Of a stretch of DNA of 64,000 bases, positions 32,462-61,213 are shown piece by piece; position 1 is the stretch's first letter; each line of letters starts with the position of its first letter. Below the pieces are notes generated by a model. It saw only the letters and a program-made list of their open reading frames with translations, was not told the DNA's origin and searched no databases. A program made the translations under genes and the position numbers. The DNA is from Acidobacteriota bacterium (GTDB lineage Bacteria; Acidobacteriota; Terriglobia; Terriglobales; SCQP01): positions 1 to 64,000 of the forward strand of contig SCQP01000020.1 in NCBI GenBank assembly GCA_004299485.1. Direction: 5' to 3'.

Positions 32462-32546
32462 GCTGGGGTTGCTGAGTGCGCTGGGGCGCCCTAACTACGG
32501 GCACAAAGTACGCCGGACCCCTCAGGCTTGCGGCCATGCTGTGGAA

Positions 32547-32552
32547 TATACT
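32547..32552 (+). promoter_or_regulatory. Putative -10 box (TATACT) of the RHH/MazF module
   Basis: TATACT is followed by GTGGT and then the ATG at 32558, again with no room for an RBS. It supports the longer antitoxin start. Confidence 0.42.
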
Positions 32553-32557
32553 GTGGT

Positions 32558-32947
32558 ATGGGTTCAACAGCAAAACGCGGGGGCCGCGCCGTTCGCACGG
32601 CGGGCCGCGCATCTCGCGCAGTAGCGAACCGCCCACGGCAAAAAACACGGCGTGGATCCAGCAACGCTGGGGCTGCCAGGTTCACCGTGGACGATCCACG
32701 CGAGGCTCCGCGCCCGTCGATGATCGTGCAGGTGGTGCTCGACGACAAGCTTCTGCAGGCGGCCAATCTTGAGGCGCGCCGCACCAAACGCAATCGTTCG
32801 GCGCTGATACGCGAGGCGTTGCGCGAGTACCTAAGGCGGCAACAGATCAAGGCATGGGAAGATCAGGAGCGCGAAGGTTATAAGCGCATTCCCGAAGACA
32901 TCGAAGAAGCCAAGTTTTGGGAAAGTCAGGCCGTCTCTGAGGACTGA
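32558..32947 (+). CDS. Ribbon-helix-helix antitoxin with Arg-rich N-terminal extension
   Basis: A 129-residue protein if started at 32558, 75 residues from an internal ATG at 32720. The C-terminal part is a CopG/MazE-like RHH: IVQVVLDDKLLQAANLEARRTKRNRSALIREALREYLRRQQIK, then an acidic toxin-binding tail (RIPEDIEEAKFWES). The first 50 residues are rich in Arg, Ala and Ser (KRGGRAVRTAGRASRAVANR), unlike ordinary antitoxins; they may bind DNA non-specifically or be untranslated. The -10 hexamer 5 nt before 32558 supports the long form. The MazF gene follows 9 bp downstream. Confidence 0.72.
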   Translation: MGSTAKRGGRAVRTAGRASRAVANRPRQKTRRGSSNAGAARFTVDDPREAPRPSMIVQVVLDDKLLQAANLEARRTKRNRSALIREALREYLRRQQIKAWEDQEREGYKRIPEDIEEAKFWESQAVSED

Positions 32948-32956
32948 TATGCGGCG

Positions 32957-33280
32957 ATGGTGAAGCGAGGGGAGGTGCGGCTCTACACCTTTGCTCCCCC
33001 GGACAAGCGCCGGCCGGTTGTCGTTCTCACCCGCGACAGTGCGCTGGGGCTGCTGTCGATGGCTACGGTCGCGCCGGTTACTTCATCGATTCGCGGCGTG
33101 CCCTCGGAAGTCGTGCTCAACGAGGATGACGGCATGAAATTCCCTTGTGCGGTGAATTTGCACGGCGCGATCACCGTCCGCCAGGACCGCTTGGGGCCGC
33201 TGCTCGCCCAGCTCAGCCCGAAGCGCATGGAACAGGTTTGCGCCGCGCTGCGCTTTGCGCTCGGCTGTGATTCCGACTGA
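32957..33280 (+). CDS. MazF/PemK-family endoribonuclease toxin
   Basis: A 107-residue protein with the MazF signatures KRGEVRLYTFAPPDKRRPVVVLTRDSAL, TVAPVTSSIRGVPSEVVL and DGMKFPCAVNLHGAITVRQDRL, then the C-terminal helix MEQVCAALRFALGC. MazF enzymes cleave RNA at short motifs. The gene is 9 bp after the RHH antitoxin and looks intact; the module is probably active. Confidence 0.9.
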   Translation: MVKRGEVRLYTFAPPDKRRPVVVLTRDSALGLLSMATVAPVTSSIRGVPSEVVLNEDDGMKFPCAVNLHGAITVRQDRLGPLLAQLSPKRMEQVCAALRFALGCDSD

Positions 33281-33288
33281 AGTGAGGC

Positions 33289-34812
33289 TCAGAAGGTCGG
33301 GCCCAGCGTCAGGAACCAGCGGTGGCCTTCATCGGGCGTGATGCCGAAGTAGAGCTTGAAAAACGTCTTCCGGCGGTTGTCGTTGAATAGCAGGCCCGCG
33401 CCCCAGGTGTGGCGCATGTTCGAGCGCGTGAGCTGGGAGCGGACGTCGTAGACCTGACCGATGTCGCCGAACAGGAAGGCGCCGAAATCGTCGGAGAAAT
33501 AATGCCGGTATTCGAGGCTCGAAGCGACCGCGTTCAGGCCATAGAAGCGATAGGGCCGGTAGCCGCGCAGGAGGGAGCTGTCGCCCAGCCGCGCCAGATC
33601 GAAGAAGGGCACCTGTTCGCCCGGCTTGGCGACGTTCCAGATGCTGAGGCCGCGCCAGGCGAGCCCATCGCTGAACTCCGTCAGCGGCAGATAGCCGCGC
33701 GCGTCGGCCTGATAATGCCAGTAACCGAAGTTGCTGTGGCCGGTGCCGTTATTGTCCGACGCGCTTAGGCGCAGGTAAACGCCGCGATGTGGGCTGAGCG
33801 GAAAATCGCGCGTGTCGAGCTGGAAATAACCGAAGGTGCTGAGTAGATTGGCGCCGCGCGCCAGGCCGGGAATCGCGCTCGTCGCAAAGATCGCCTGGGC
33901 GTTGGCGAAGCCGCCCTCGCGGCCGCCAAACACGCGGGTGCCGGAGTAGTCTTCGCCCACGCCGAAGCTGAGCGCCTGCGCCGGCCGTACGCCAAACGTC
34001 AGCCGCAGGCCGCGCTCCTGCAAGTCGTACATGGCGCGCTGCGCCGGGCTGGTGGGACCGAGGCCGAAGAAATCTTCATTGGGGCTGACCTGATAGCGGC
34101 CGGTCAGATCGAGGCTATAGGTCTGCAGGTTGCCGCCCGTGGGATCGAAGCGGAAGCCGAGCGTGGTCTTGAGATAATTCTCAAACGTGACCTGCGCGCT
34201 GCCGTGCACCTGCACCATGTTGATTACGCCCGCAGGTGTAGCGAAGGCGATGCCAGGCCCGAAGCCGGAGCCATCGCCCAGGCCGCCCCACAGGCCCCGC
34301 ACCACGGACTTGTTGCCCCAGAGAATGATGCCCTCGCCTTGCAGACTGTCAAGCACGGCCTGCGGATCGGCGTTGGCCATCACCAGCGTGGCCTGGCCGC
34401 GTTCGAGCAGGCAGACGACGGTGGTCACACGCGCGCCTTCGGGACGCGCGAAAATCCAGGTCTCCTTTTCGCCGTAGCGCGCGGTGCGATGCTCGAGCAA
34501 CTGCCACGGCGGTGTGAGCGCGGCTGCCAGCACCGCGTTGAGTTGCGCACGTTCGGAGGGCGACGCCTCGCCGGGCAGATCGAACAGCGCCAGATGGGTA
34601 TCCTTCGAGCCGATATGGCCAGCGCCACGCACGAGCAACTGCGAGACGCCGATCAGGCGGCGGTGATGCGGCTGCGCGTGCAGTGCCCGTGAGACGCGCT
34701 GGGTGAGCTGCGCGAAATCGGTGGGCGCAGCGGCGGCTTGCGCGGCGAGTGCCGCCGGCGTAAGGGCGGCGAGAGCGAGGGTGAGGATCGGGACGAGCGT
34801 ACGGTTTTTCAT
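33289..34812 (-). CDS. Omp85-type barrel protein with N-terminal DUF4252-like domain
   Basis: A 507-residue protein with a signal peptide (TLALAALTPAALAAQ). Residues about 30-165 resemble DUF4252 (DFAQLTQRVSRALH..., SQLLVRGAG.., WIFARPEGARVTTVVCLLERGQATLVMANADP), the same domain as the free-standing next gene. Residues about 170-507 are a surface-antigen/Omp85-like barrel (GNKSVVRGLWGGLGDGSGFGPGIAF, DTRDFPLSPHRGVYLRLS, GDSSLLRGYRPYRFYGLNAVASSLEYRH, GAGLLFNDNRRKTFFKLYFG) ending in LTLGPTF with a terminal Phe. It is the last gene of the sigma/anti-sigma/DUF4252 operon and presumably sits in the outer membrane. Confidence 0.82.
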   Translation of the reverse strand: MKNRTLVPILTLALAALTPAALAAQAAAAPTDFAQLTQRVSRALHAQPHHRRLIGVSQLLVRGAGHIGSKDTHLALFDLPGEASPSERAQLNAVLAAALTPPWQLLEHRTARYGEKETWIFARPEGARVTTVVCLLERGQATLVMANADPQAVLDSLQGEGIILWGNKSVVRGLWGGLGDGSGFGPGIAFATPAGVINMVQVHGSAQVTFENYLKTTLGFRFDPTGGNLQTYSLDLTGRYQVSPNEDFFGLGPTSPAQRAMYDLQERGLRLTFGVRPAQALSFGVGEDYSGTRVFGGREGGFANAQAIFATSAIPGLARGANLLSTFGYFQLDTRDFPLSPHRGVYLRLSASDNNGTGHSNFGYWHYQADARGYLPLTEFSDGLAWRGLSIWNVAKPGEQVPFFDLARLGDSSLLRGYRPYRFYGLNAVASSLEYRHYFSDDFGAFLFGDIGQVYDVRSQLTRSNMRHTWGAGLLFNDNRRKTFFKLYFGITPDEGHRWFLTLGPTF

Positions 34813-34814
34813 GG

Positions 34815-35360
34815 CTAATTCCTCGGGTTCACGCTGGGGATGCCAAAGTGCCCGCCAAGCTGGCTGAGCGCGGCCGGATCAATCGGCCCCACCAGGTTCA
34901 CCACCCGCAGCTCGCGCGGGTAGGCGGCAATGATCACCATGCCGGCCACGCCTTTGCCGGCGGCCATCAGGTAAATGTCCACGGTGCGGCAGCCGCGGTG
35001 GCTGTGGACGCTCATAATGCGCGACCACCCCGGTGCGTCAAGCTGGTGGTGAATTGCGGCGAGGTCGCGGGACGAATAGTCGTCGCGGTGGCCGAAGCGG
35101 AAGCTTTTGACGTAGACGCCCTGGAGTTGCTGCAGAACACGGCGCGCCTGGCCGTTGCCGTCGTTTGCCTCCTTGGCCGAGAGCATCCGGATGCCGACTT
35201 GCAGCATGGGACCGTCGAGGGTCACGTCGCTGACCTCCGCGGCGCGCTGCGCCAGGCCGTTGAAGGTGAGCTGAATGCGGCCCGGCTGCTGGGCTGCGAG
35301 CGCGCCTGCTAGCGCGGCCACCGTGAGCATGGCGTACAGACAATGGACGAGCTTTTTCAT
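34815..35360 (-). CDS. Exported DUF4252 protein
   Basis: A 181-residue protein with a signal peptide (LTVAALAGALAAQ). The mature part LTFNGLAQRAAEVSDVTLDGPMLQ, VYVKSFRFGHRDDYSSRDLAAIHHQL, WSRIMSVHSH and VDIYLMAAGKGVAGMVIIAAYPRELRVVNLVG is typical of DUF4252, small periplasmic proteins often encoded by ECF sigma operons. The stop lies 2 nt before the Omp85 gene and the start overlaps the preceding membrane-protein stop (ATGA). Function unknown. Confidence 0.83.
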   Translation of the reverse strand: MKKLVHCLYAMLTVAALAGALAAQQPGRIQLTFNGLAQRAAEVSDVTLDGPMLQVGIRMLSAKEANDGNGQARRVLQQLQGVYVKSFRFGHRDDYSSRDLAAIHHQLDAPGWSRIMSVHSHRGCRTVDIYLMAAGKGVAGMVIIAAYPRELRVVNLVGPIDPAALSQLGGHFGIPSVNPRN

Positions 35361-35707
35361 CGGTCTGCCCCTCTCTGGCCGGCGTGCATGTCCTCGGCGA
35401 TTTGCGCTTCAGCCCAATTCAGCTCGCCGGTCGTGATCTGTAGCGCATACGCCAGCCGCGCTTGCGCTTCCTGCGCCCGTTGCGCCTGGACTTGCCGCCG
35501 GTGCACCACACCGATAGCGATATACGCACACGCCGCCAGCAGCAGGGCGCAGAGGCTGACCAGGGCCGCGCGCTGCTGCAGCCAGGGGCCATGGGTGCGC
35601 GCGCGGGCCTTGCGGGCATGTGCCAGAATGCGCCCGGTCAACACCGCAGGCGGGTCCTCGCTGCGGTACAGATCATGCAAATGTTGTTCCAGTTCGGCTT
35701 CAGTCAT
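35357..35707 (-). CDS. Single-pass membrane protein, probable anti-sigma factor
   Basis: A 116-residue protein: an acidic cytoplasmic part (MTEAELEQHLHDLYRSEDPP..), one membrane helix (ALVSLCALLLAACAYIAIGVV) and a coiled-coil-like periplasmic tail (RRQVQAQRAQEAQARLAYALQ, then NWAEAQIAEDM). Position directly after an ECF sigma gene with ATGA overlap, size and topology all fit an anti-sigma factor, although no zinc-binding HxxxCxxC motif is present. The YALQITTGELNWAEAQ segment is seen in acidobacterial relatives as I recall. Confidence 0.68.
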   Translation of the reverse strand: MTEAELEQHLHDLYRSEDPPAVLTGRILAHARKARARTHGPWLQQRAALVSLCALLLAACAYIAIGVVHRRQVQAQRAQEAQARLAYALQITTGELNWAEAQIAEDMHAGQRGADR

Positions 35708-36234
35708 TGCTGCTCCAGGTGGGCTTCCGCCACGTCCGATGGCCGTGGCGGCGTGAGACGTAATTTCAAACTCGTGAGGGCGTGCCGTAGTTTCTTGCGG
35801 ACGGCGTTTTCCGGGATGCCGAGCACCCGCCCGATATCGGCCGGCTCCAGGTCTTCCTGATAGCGCAGTACCAGCGCGACGCGCGTCGCCGCCGGCAGGG
35901 CGGCAATCAGCCGTGCCAGCCGCTGCGACAGCAGCGGATCACGCCCGGGCGCCCCGGCTGCCGGGCTCGCGGCCGCGTGCACGTCGCGTAACGGCAGCCA
36001 GCGCCGGAAGCGTTGCCGCCGCATCTGGTCAATGCAGCGCCGCGCGGTAACGCGCCGGAGCCAATACACCAGGTGCGCAGCCGACTCGATCCGGCCGCCA
36101 TGTTCGAGCAGCGCCAGGAACACATCCTGGGCGATCTCTTCGGCGAGCGCGCGGTTGCGCAACGCGTTCAGCGCCATGCTGAACACCATCCGCTGGTGCT
36201 CCCGCACCGCCTGCTCGAATGCCTCCGTCTCCAT
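35704..36234 (-). CDS. ECF-family RNA polymerase sigma factor
   Basis: A 176-residue sigma-70 family protein. Region 2 covers EHQRMVFSMALNALRNRALAEEIAQDVFLALLEHG and HLVYWLRRVTARRCIDQMRRQR. Region 4 covers RLIAALPAATRVALVLRYQEDLEPADIGRVLGIPENAVRKKLRHALTSLK. It starts the operon sigma / membrane protein / DUF4252 / Omp85; all junctions overlap or are within 2 bp. The operon probably answers envelope conditions and controls itself (inference). Confidence 0.9.
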   Translation of the reverse strand: METEAFEQAVREHQRMVFSMALNALRNRALAEEIAQDVFLALLEHGGRIESAAHLVYWLRRVTARRCIDQMRRQRFRRWLPLRDVHAAASPAAGAPGRDPLLSQRLARLIAALPAATRVALVLRYQEDLEPADIGRVLGIPENAVRKKLRHALTSLKLRLTPPRPSDVAEAHLEQQ

Positions 36235-36353
36235 CGGCTTCTACTGTGGAATACGCACCAGCCCCGCCCACCCGCAGATTTATTTTGTGCGAATGTGAAA
36301 TCGTTGAAGGAAAAGCCTGCGAAAGATCGATCCCTATTGCCGAGGTGGTCCAA

Positions 36354-59550: not shown

Positions 59551-59964
59551 ATGAAAGTCGCTTATCTTTTCGTCACTTCCGGTCACACCGCCGACTACAA
59601 GCTGGGCAAGATGATTCTGCCGCAGCTCGAAGCCGGCACCCACGGCGTGGAGGTGGTTGGCATGTTCTTTTTCGACGACAACGCTTATATTTTGCGCAAG
59701 GGTGACCCGATCGGCGAGCGCCTGGCCAAGGTCGCCAAAGAGAAAAACATCTGGCTGGGCGTGTGCGACATGTGCGCGCTCGACCGTGGCCTCGCTGCGG
59801 GCGAGCCGGTCTGGTGCCAGCCCGACCGCAAATCCGCGCGCCCGGCCGCAGCACCCGGGAAGATCAAACTGCAAAGCGCCATCGAGGGCCTGCACGTCGG
59901 CTGCTTCCCGGACGTTTACAAAGCTCTTAGCGGCAACCCTCCGGATCTGGTCATCAGCCTGTAG
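59551..59964 (+). CDS. DsrE-family sulfur-relay-like protein
   Basis: A 137-residue protein. KVAYLFVTSGHTADYKLGKMILPQLE and VEVVGMFFFDDNAYILRKGDPIGERLAKVAKEKNIWLGVCDMCALDRG give a DsrE/TusD-type alpha/beta fold with a CxxC pair (CDMC). The C-terminal VGCFPDVYKALSG holds a third conserved Cys. DsrE-like proteins carry persulfide sulfur or act in sulfur trafficking. It ends opposite the ECF42 sigma gene with an 11-bp convergent overlap. Confidence 0.82.
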   Translation: MKVAYLFVTSGHTADYKLGKMILPQLEAGTHGVEVVGMFFFDDNAYILRKGDPIGERLAKVAKEKNIWLGVCDMCALDRGLAAGEPVWCQPDRKSARPAAAPGKIKLQSAIEGLHVGCFPDVYKALSGNPPDLVISL

Positions 59965-61213
59965 GCGCAGCTTCCACCCCAGCCAGGCGCCGCCGCAAAA
60001 ACGTCTGCTCGACGGGATTTGAGGCTAGCGCCAGCGCGCGCCGGTAGGCCAATGCAGCTTCGGTGTTGCGCCCCTGCCGCCGCAGCAGGTCGGCACGCGC
60101 AGCATGCAGCAGGTAGTAGTCCGCTAGGGCGCTTGCAATCTCGGGTGCGTCGATGAGCGCCAGCCCGCGTTCCGGCCCCTCGGCCATGGCAATCGCAACC
60201 GCACGGTTGAGAGCAACCACCGGCGACGGCGTCAGCCGCTCGAGAACGCCGTAAAGCGCCGCAATCTCCCGCCAGTCGGTCTCAGCGGCGCTTTCCGCCC
60301 GGTCGTGCAGTGCGGCGATAGCGCCCTGCAACTGATATGGCCCGGCGGCGTGCTGTGCCAAAGCCTGTTCCAGCAGCGCCGCACCCTCCGCAATCTGCGC
60401 GTGATCCCAAAGTTTGCGGTCCTGCTCTTCCAGCGGCACCAACTCACCCGCAGCGTCGATGCGCGCGTGACGCCGGGCGTCGTGCAGCAGCATCAGCGCC
60501 AGCAGTCCGGAATTTTCCGGTTCCTCCGGTTGCAAGCTGCAGAGCATCCGCCCCAGCCGGATGGCCTCGGCGCACAAATCCGCACGCACCAGACGGTCCC
60601 CGGTCCTCGACGCGTAGCCCTCGTTGAAAATCAGGTAGATAACCGCCTGCACGGCTTCCAGCCGTTCGCGCAAGGCCGCGCGCGCCGGGATTTCATAGGG
60701 AATATTGGCGTCCCGGATCTTCTGCTTGGCGCGCACAATGCGCTGCGCCAGGGACGGCTCCGCCAGAAAAAACGCCCGCGCAATTTCGGGCGTAGTCAAC
60801 CCGCCCAGGGTCCGCAGCGTCAGTGCGACTTGCGCTTCGCGGTTGAGCGCCGGATGGCAGCAGGTGAAGATCAGCCGCAAGCGCTCATCGGGGCAAATGC
60901 TCGTCATCTCGTCCGCGGAAATATCGTCGTTCGCGCCGCGCTGCGTTTCGTATGCGACGGCATCTTGCTTCTCCATCTGCGTGCTCTGCCGCCGTACGCG
61001 GTCGACGAGCTTGCGGCGGGCGACGGCGGTGACCCACGCACCCGGGTTTTGCGGCGCCCCACGCGTGGGCCAGACCGCCAGCGCCGCCGTAAAGGCATCC
61101 TGCAGCGCTTCTTCGGCCAGATCAAAGGAGCCGGAGAACCGGATCAGAAACGCCAGGATCCGGCCCGACTCCTCGTGATACGTGGTCTCGACGAGCTGGC
61201 TCACCGCGGTCAC
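59954..61213 (-). CDS. ECF42-type RNA polymerase sigma factor with C-terminal TPR-like extension
   Basis: A 419-residue protein. Sigma regions 2 (RILAFLIRFSGSFDLAEEALQDAFTAALAVWP) and 4 (LTLRTLGGLTTPEIARAFFLAEPSLAQRIVRAKQKIR) occupy the first 180 residues. The long C-terminal part (IYLIFNEGYASRTGDRLVRADLCAEAIRLGRMLCSLQPEEPE, RLTPSPVVALNRAVAIAMAEGP) is the DUF6596/TPR-like extension of ECF42. This group has no anti-sigma factor and is linked to DGPF proteins; two lie directly upstream and one stop overlaps this start by 4 bp. Confidence 0.92.
   Translation of the reverse strand: MTAVSQLVETTYHEESGRILAFLIRFSGSFDLAEEALQDAFTAALAVWPTRGAPQNPGAWVTAVARRKLVDRVRRQSTQMEKQDAVAYETQRGANDDISADEMTSICPDERLRLIFTCCHPALNREAQVALTLRTLGGLTTPEIARAFFLAEPSLAQRIVRAKQKIRDANIPYEIPARAALRERLEAVQAVIYLIFNEGYASRTGDRLVRADLCAEAIRLGRMLCSLQPEEPENSGLLALMLLHDARRHARIDAAGELVPLEEQDRKLWDHAQIAEGAALLEQALAQHAAGPYQLQGAIAALHDRAESAAETDWREIAALYGVLERLTPSPVVALNRAVAIAMAEGPERGLALIDAPEIASALADYYLLHAARADLLRRQGRNTEAALAYRRALALASNPVEQTFLRRRLAGVEAAPTG

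Follow-up and report, generated by a model that had tools for sequence, protein, structure and literature searches.

An acidobacterial ECF sigma factor operon with a DUF4252-related domain fused to an Omp85 barrel

Described systems and how the locus compares with them

In the FecA–FecR–FecI system, an outer-membrane barrel with an N-terminal periplasmic domain is combined with a single-pass regulator and an ECF sigma factor. The RpoE–RseA–RseB operon comprises an autoregulated sigma factor, a membrane anti-sigma factor and an exported partner. The operon analyzed here lies in a stretch of 64,000 nucleotides of an acidobacterial genome (the window) and has features of both. Like the first system, it encodes a barrel with an N-terminal periplasmic domain, a single-pass membrane protein and an ECF sigma factor; however, the barrel is of the Omp85 rather than the TonB-dependent type, its N-terminal domain is related to DUF4252 (the B type defined below) rather than STN, and an extra, free DUF4252 protein is present. 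Like the second, it joins a probably autoregulated sigma factor, a candidate membrane anti-sigma factor and an exported partner in one operon, whereas its regulon is apparently very small and none of its proteins matched an RseA or RseB family in Pfam or NCBIfam above threshold.

DUF4252 proteins adjoin ECF sigma factors in Bacteroidota and Acidobacteriota, and the literature found, as far as it was accessible, assigns them no function. In Porphyromonas gingivalis, two operons of this kind (PG0214-0218 and PG0985-0987) are jointly upregulated when a diguanylate cyclase is mutated, and peroxide strengthens the effect (PMC10101095); the sigma–DUF4252 operons show altered expression in sphingolipid mutants (PMC9045371), and they belong to the iron stimulon (PMC10434189). 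By analogy, these responses would fit a role in envelope or redox stress. The P. gingivalis operons resemble the one in the window in that an ECF sigma factor, a hypothetical protein and a DUF4252 protein form one co-regulated run. They belong to another phylum, however, and are compared here by their published description, the available parts of which mention no Omp85 fusion.

The Omp85/TpsB superfamily has been divided into ten subfamilies, with N-terminal domains of the WD40, patatin, metallo, POTRA or lipoprotein type or with none (PMC4104836). The barrel protein of the window shares with the “noNterm” and other non-POTRA subfamilies a barrel with the L6 RGY and FGDxG motifs and the lack of POTRA domains (PMC4104836). 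It differs from the subfamilies as they are published there in its DUF4252-B N-terminal domain and in the location of its gene in a sigma factor operon. A published description of the DUF4252–Omp85 architecture was not found, including in the accessible text of that survey, which is weak evidence given that subscription journals lay mostly outside the search. Sigma–DUF4252 operons and POTRA-less Omp85 proteins are thus already known, each separately.

The operon and its putative promoter

Four genes on the minus strand at 33289-36234 form one transcription unit that reads sigma factor, membrane protein (TM), DUF4252 protein (A) and barrel fusion (Table 1). The sigma and TM genes overlap by 4 nt (ATGA), as do the TM and DUF4252 genes, and the barrel gene starts 2 nt past the stop codon of the DUF4252 gene. 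The gene coordinates therefore bear out the compact four-gene arrangement proposed in the initial annotation, and Pfam matches and hydropathy agree with the four products that it named: a sigma factor, a single-pass membrane protein, an exported DUF4252 protein and an Omp85-type barrel.

Table 1. Features of the operon, with positions in the window
Feature	Position	Strand	Size and evidence
ECF sigma factor, regions 2 and 4	35704..36234	-	176 aa; PF04542, PF08281 and TIGR02937 over cut-off
Single-pass membrane protein, candidate anti-sigma factor	35357..35707	-	116 aa; hydropathy, conserved family A5
DUF4252 protein A, exported	34815..35360	-	181 aa; PF14060 E 4.5e-11
Fusion protein: signal peptide, DUF4252-B domain and Omp85 barrel	33289..34812	-	507 aa
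DUF4252-B domain, residues ~27-165, at the POTRA position	34318..34734	-	Free-B HMM E 2e-23; alignment with 19 free B proteins
Omp85 beta-barrel, residues 174-507	33292..34293	-	PF01103 E 3.5e-13; RGY and FGDxG motifs
Putative autoregulatory ECF promoter, AAAATAAATCTGCGGG...GGTGCGTATTCC	36249..36286	-	Conserved in L043 and L044 although the upstream DNA has diverged

The sigma factor matches Sigma70_r2 (8e-12), Sigma70_r4_2 (1e-12) and TIGR02937 (71.2 bits against a cut-off of 42.9), and the restriction to Sigma70 regions 2 and 4 identifies it as an ECF sigma factor. The product of the next gene has no Pfam family match and no recognized anti-sigma domain; an NCBIfam anti-sigma model gives a weak, sub-threshold match (E 5e-4). 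Its hydropathy peaks at 2.54 at residue 50, with a transmembrane segment at about residues 50-68, and its topology was read as a cytoplasmic N-terminal part and a periplasmic tail of ~45 aa. The single-pass protein encoded beside the sigma gene constitutes a conserved family, and its features and position make it a candidate anti-sigma factor. Two further regions of the window were recorded. Just downstream, on the opposite strand (32528-33280, +), are two ORFs that by eye resemble genes for an antitoxin and a MazF/PemK-type toxin. At 59954-61213 (-), a 419-aa ORF shows a weak ECF-sigma match (E 1.5e-5) and has a long C-terminal part.

Of 37 operons, 23 have the motif TTTTTGCATCC-N15/16-TGCGKAT upstream of the sigma gene at fixed spacing. 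The most frequent exact dyad occurs in 12 of the 37, against at most 5 in shuffled sequences. In its strict form, the motif is found in 11 of 15 relative genomes, with 11 of its 12 sites at the sigma–TM–A–B operon described below, and the reversed pattern used as a control gives 0-1 matches per genome. A relaxed form finds additional sites in the relatives, so the regulon may be wider; some of these sites belong to one nearly identical sequence that recurs (TGCATCATGGCAATTTTG...) and may be coding.

The lineage with the fusion carries a variant, AAATAAATYTGYGGG...GCGTATT, that is conserved in the window and in the related loci L043 and L044 and ends, in the window, ~14 nt before the sigma start codon. 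Sigma control of the operon, as the initial annotation suggested, is supported by this conserved motif, and the search that it proposed upstream of 36234 located a conserved promoter candidate of which the -10 half fits the relatives' consensus well and the -35 half poorly. Autoregulation in the window is thus likely rather than proven. The strict motif of the relatives is absent from the window's own genome, and a looser motif yields 26 sites there against 10 for the reversed pattern; no further targets in that genome are therefore claimed.

The fused domain, the barrel and protein A

Protein A is a DUF4252 protein by Pfam (43.4 bits against the PF14060 cut-off of 23.9), and a lipobox was not seen in it. 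To the initial annotation, the N-terminal 135 residues of the barrel protein looked like a second DUF4252 domain. Residues 1-170 of the barrel protein have no Pfam match. They align with a free exported protein of ~170 aa, here named B, whose gene comes after the A gene in other acidobacteria and follows it in the same operon at ~40 acidobacterial loci. An HMM of 27 free B proteins, built without any fusion protein, matches the N-termini of all four barrel fusions found (E 2e-22 to 2e-24). In hhalign comparisons, B matches the fused N-domain with a probability of 99.3 (E 2e-20) and A matches B with 98.1 (E 9e-14), whereas A against the N-domain directly gives 55.8 (E 1e-4); column-shuffled controls give E values of at least 0.03. 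Single B proteins score at most 20.6 bits against PF14060 among those tested, below the cut-off of 23.9. By profile similarity, the fused domain is therefore a DUF4252-related B domain and not a PF14060 member by the curated Pfam threshold. “B subfamily” is a name coined here for this profile relationship, of the domain to free B and of B to A. The kinship with DUF4252 proposed in the initial annotation stands by this bridge through B; as a direct relationship or a Pfam match, it does not.

The annotation had also named a POTRA fold as a finding that would overturn its reading. Against a POTRA profile made from the Omp85 proteins of this genome, the N-domain gives an hhalign probability of 0.1, whereas two sets of the genome's own POTRAs find each other at 96.8. 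A POTRA identity was rejected on this comparison; nor does the fusion protein have a Pfam POTRA match, and the N-terminal POTRA domains of the BamA/TamA type were thus not detected in it. The bridge through B, together with the missing POTRA signal, points to a distant DUF4252 relative that is not detectably POTRA, and this domain of ~140 residues occupies the POTRA position of the barrel protein. An origin as a copy of the adjacent A gene was likewise rejected because the N-domain is most closely related to the free B proteins, which form a subfamily of their own throughout the phylum. The barrel therefore does carry a relative of its periplasmic partner's domain, as had been suggested, though one descended from a second gene, B. 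Prediction for the whole fusion protein from four sequences reached a pLDDT of 32.8, and no claim on the fold of the fused domain is made from it.

The barrel belongs to the Omp85 family (PF01103, 50.2 bits against a cut-off of 24, residues 248-477). The L6 motif RGY (R416 G417 Y418) and FGDxG (448-452) are invariant in the four aligned fusion proteins. Only Omp85 families were matched in Pfam and NCBIfam, with neither an STN domain nor a TonB-dependent receptor in the barrel protein. Much of the class also has barrels of this family as independent proteins that lack POTRA and are encoded away from sigma operons of this kind (L115-L134), the closest being in genome G287 (E 2e-105). At L117 (7682-9400, +) and L115 (2389-4104, +), and also at L116 and L120, such a stand-alone barrel gene is followed by the gene for a related ~570-aa protein, which in the case tested (L117) has no Pfam or NCBIfam match. 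Plasmid records gave one distant barrel-only match and no DUF4252 match.

The AlphaFold2 model of protein A (pLDDT 80.8) has an alpha/beta fold. Among solved structures, DcrB matches it best (Foldseek E 6e-4, prob 1.00, TM 0.37/0.43; VIA Z 9.4, rmsd 3.8 over 105 residues), with the effector chaperones EagT6 and SciW and with PsbP ranking behind. DcrB belongs to the Mog1p/PsbP family and is a periplasmic protein anchored to the membrane (PMC7716261). Unlike DcrB, protein A shows no lipobox, and a profile search of the PDB with it returned no sequence relatives; the TM-score is modest. The predicted resemblance to DcrB and the Mog1-PsbP proteins is a lead on the fold only. A sequence similarity of DUF4252-A to TamA (E 0.15) was not significant and was set aside.

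The chaperones among these matches, the DcrB match itself and the invariant Omp85 motifs would suit an outer-membrane assembly or translocation factor, in which B substitutes for POTRA in passing clients to the barrel and sigma induces the protein when assembly fails. Protein assembly or export is the general role of Omp85 members, and N-domains other than POTRA have been described in the superfamily as surveyed (PMC4104836). We consider this role unlikely, since just four genomes have the fusion and one relative has lost it, B is widespread without a barrel, and the genome encodes separate POTRA-bearing Omp85 proteins; the structural match, moreover, is modest and concerns A, not the fused B domain.

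Distribution of the fusion and the proposed circuit

Several families of the phylum have the order sigma–TM–A–B, which is found at 36 loci in plain form and at further loci with minor variations. The fusion of B to the barrel occurs in four genomes of two genera, namely in the window and at L043, L044 and L045 (records JAKASR010000001, JAJYIU010000063 and JANWLQ010000086, all acidobacterial MAGs). The four fused N-domains form one clade (support 100/100). Gene order and fusion recur in the relatives at 63-71% identity, with the full operon in two and only the A–barrel end in the third, where the contig begins. Such recurrence is explained neither by chance nor by a single assembly error. Relatives keep the operon together; a split operon there was the other outcome that the initial annotation had named as speaking against its reading. 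From these comparisons, we infer an ancestral sigma–TM–A–B operon, with an old A/B pair, whose B gene became fused to the barrel.

In the N-domain, the junction and the barrel, dN is lower than dS, which indicates that the fused frame is maintained by purifying selection. A fifth relative, genome G009, keeps only a remnant of the fused barrel, its last 44 codons, beside other genes (L046, 7374-7505, +); thus, the fusion is dispensable. This decay, the narrow distribution and the many stand-alone POTRA-less barrels of the same family in the class (L115-L134) are what would be expected if a near-neutral accident had joined B to a stand-alone barrel as a mere outer-membrane anchor, the barrel bringing no new function. 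That account is very unlikely in our estimate, as the barrel has kept its Omp85 motifs and changes at a lower rate than the B domain (dN 0.13-0.21 against 0.17-0.45).

When the whole phylum was searched, B also turned up in long reading frames in three genomes of a single further family; these frames have a VWA domain as their C-terminal part (TIGR03436, E 1.6e-58 to 8e-63). These B–VWA fusions (L189, 5031-6761, -; L190, 5437-7125, +; L191, 5442-7157, +) lie in sigma–TM–A–B operons or beside A, with extra copies of A in two. B has thus been fused independently, at least twice, to unrelated C-terminal modules, an Omp85 barrel and a VWA domain, and is portable between such modules. An in-frame B–A fusion at L107 (5294-6232, -; genome G202) was set aside because its halves are near-identical to the neighboring genes, so that it is either a tandem duplication of recent date or an artefact of assembly. 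The window's genome has a second operon (L002, 1456-3101, -; G000:C18) with sigma, TM and A and without B or barrel, and such operons without B also occur in other members of its family.

The reading that we prefer, at about even confidence, is a self-contained, autoregulated ECF-sigma feedback circuit for envelope stress. Its products would be A and B, the latter anchored to the outer membrane in this lineage. The single-pass protein would hold sigma at the inner membrane until an envelope disturbance released it to transcribe mainly its own operon. The related periplasmic proteins A and B would then rise. They would bind each other or one common target in the envelope, and by way of the membrane protein they would also attenuate the signal. 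If the regulon is truly this limited, A and B must themselves constitute the response. In most acidobacteria, B is a soluble exported protein; in the window's lineage, a POTRA-less Omp85 barrel would suspend the B domain from the outer membrane on its periplasmic side, where the A–B pair could bridge to the inner-membrane regulator. The anti-sigma role, the stress signal, A–B contact and the direction of the feedback are inferred in this scheme. Direct contact between A and the fused domain is plausible because the two share a domain and are co-conserved.

The same parts could be wired the other way, with B as the input. As in FecA–FecR–FecI signaling, the barrel would sense an event at the outer membrane and B would relay it, directly or via A, to the membrane anti-sigma factor. 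The matching parts are all in one operon (a barrel with an N-terminal periplasmic domain, a single-pass regulator and an ECF sigma factor), and the portability of B between C-terminal modules would suit such a relay. Most relatives, however, have a free B and an operon without a barrel, so the barrel cannot be a general sensor; the periplasmic tail of the membrane protein is just ~45 aa, and an Omp85 barrel is expected to have neither TonB box nor plug. On balance, signaling of this type seems rather unlikely. The sequences themselves are compatible with a B that relays to sigma as in FecA, damps it as RseB does or handles clients as POTRA does, and B may do any of these.

The gene fusions provide a physical clue beyond operon structure: of the A/B pair, one protein functions at a site where a barrel in the outer membrane can retain it. 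It is doubtful, though conceivable, that DUF4252-B is a portable periplasmic signaling domain that plugs envelope modules (free, Omp85 barrel or VWA) into one ECF-sigma circuit, which would amount to a new, Omp85-based form of cell-surface signaling. With the fusion, the Omp85 superfamily gains an N-terminal domain not represented in the ten subfamilies as published, and the defined promoter motif gives a read-out for the circuit. The fusion also makes the binding of A to B, the binding of B to the anti-sigma factor and the outer-membrane location of B concretely testable.
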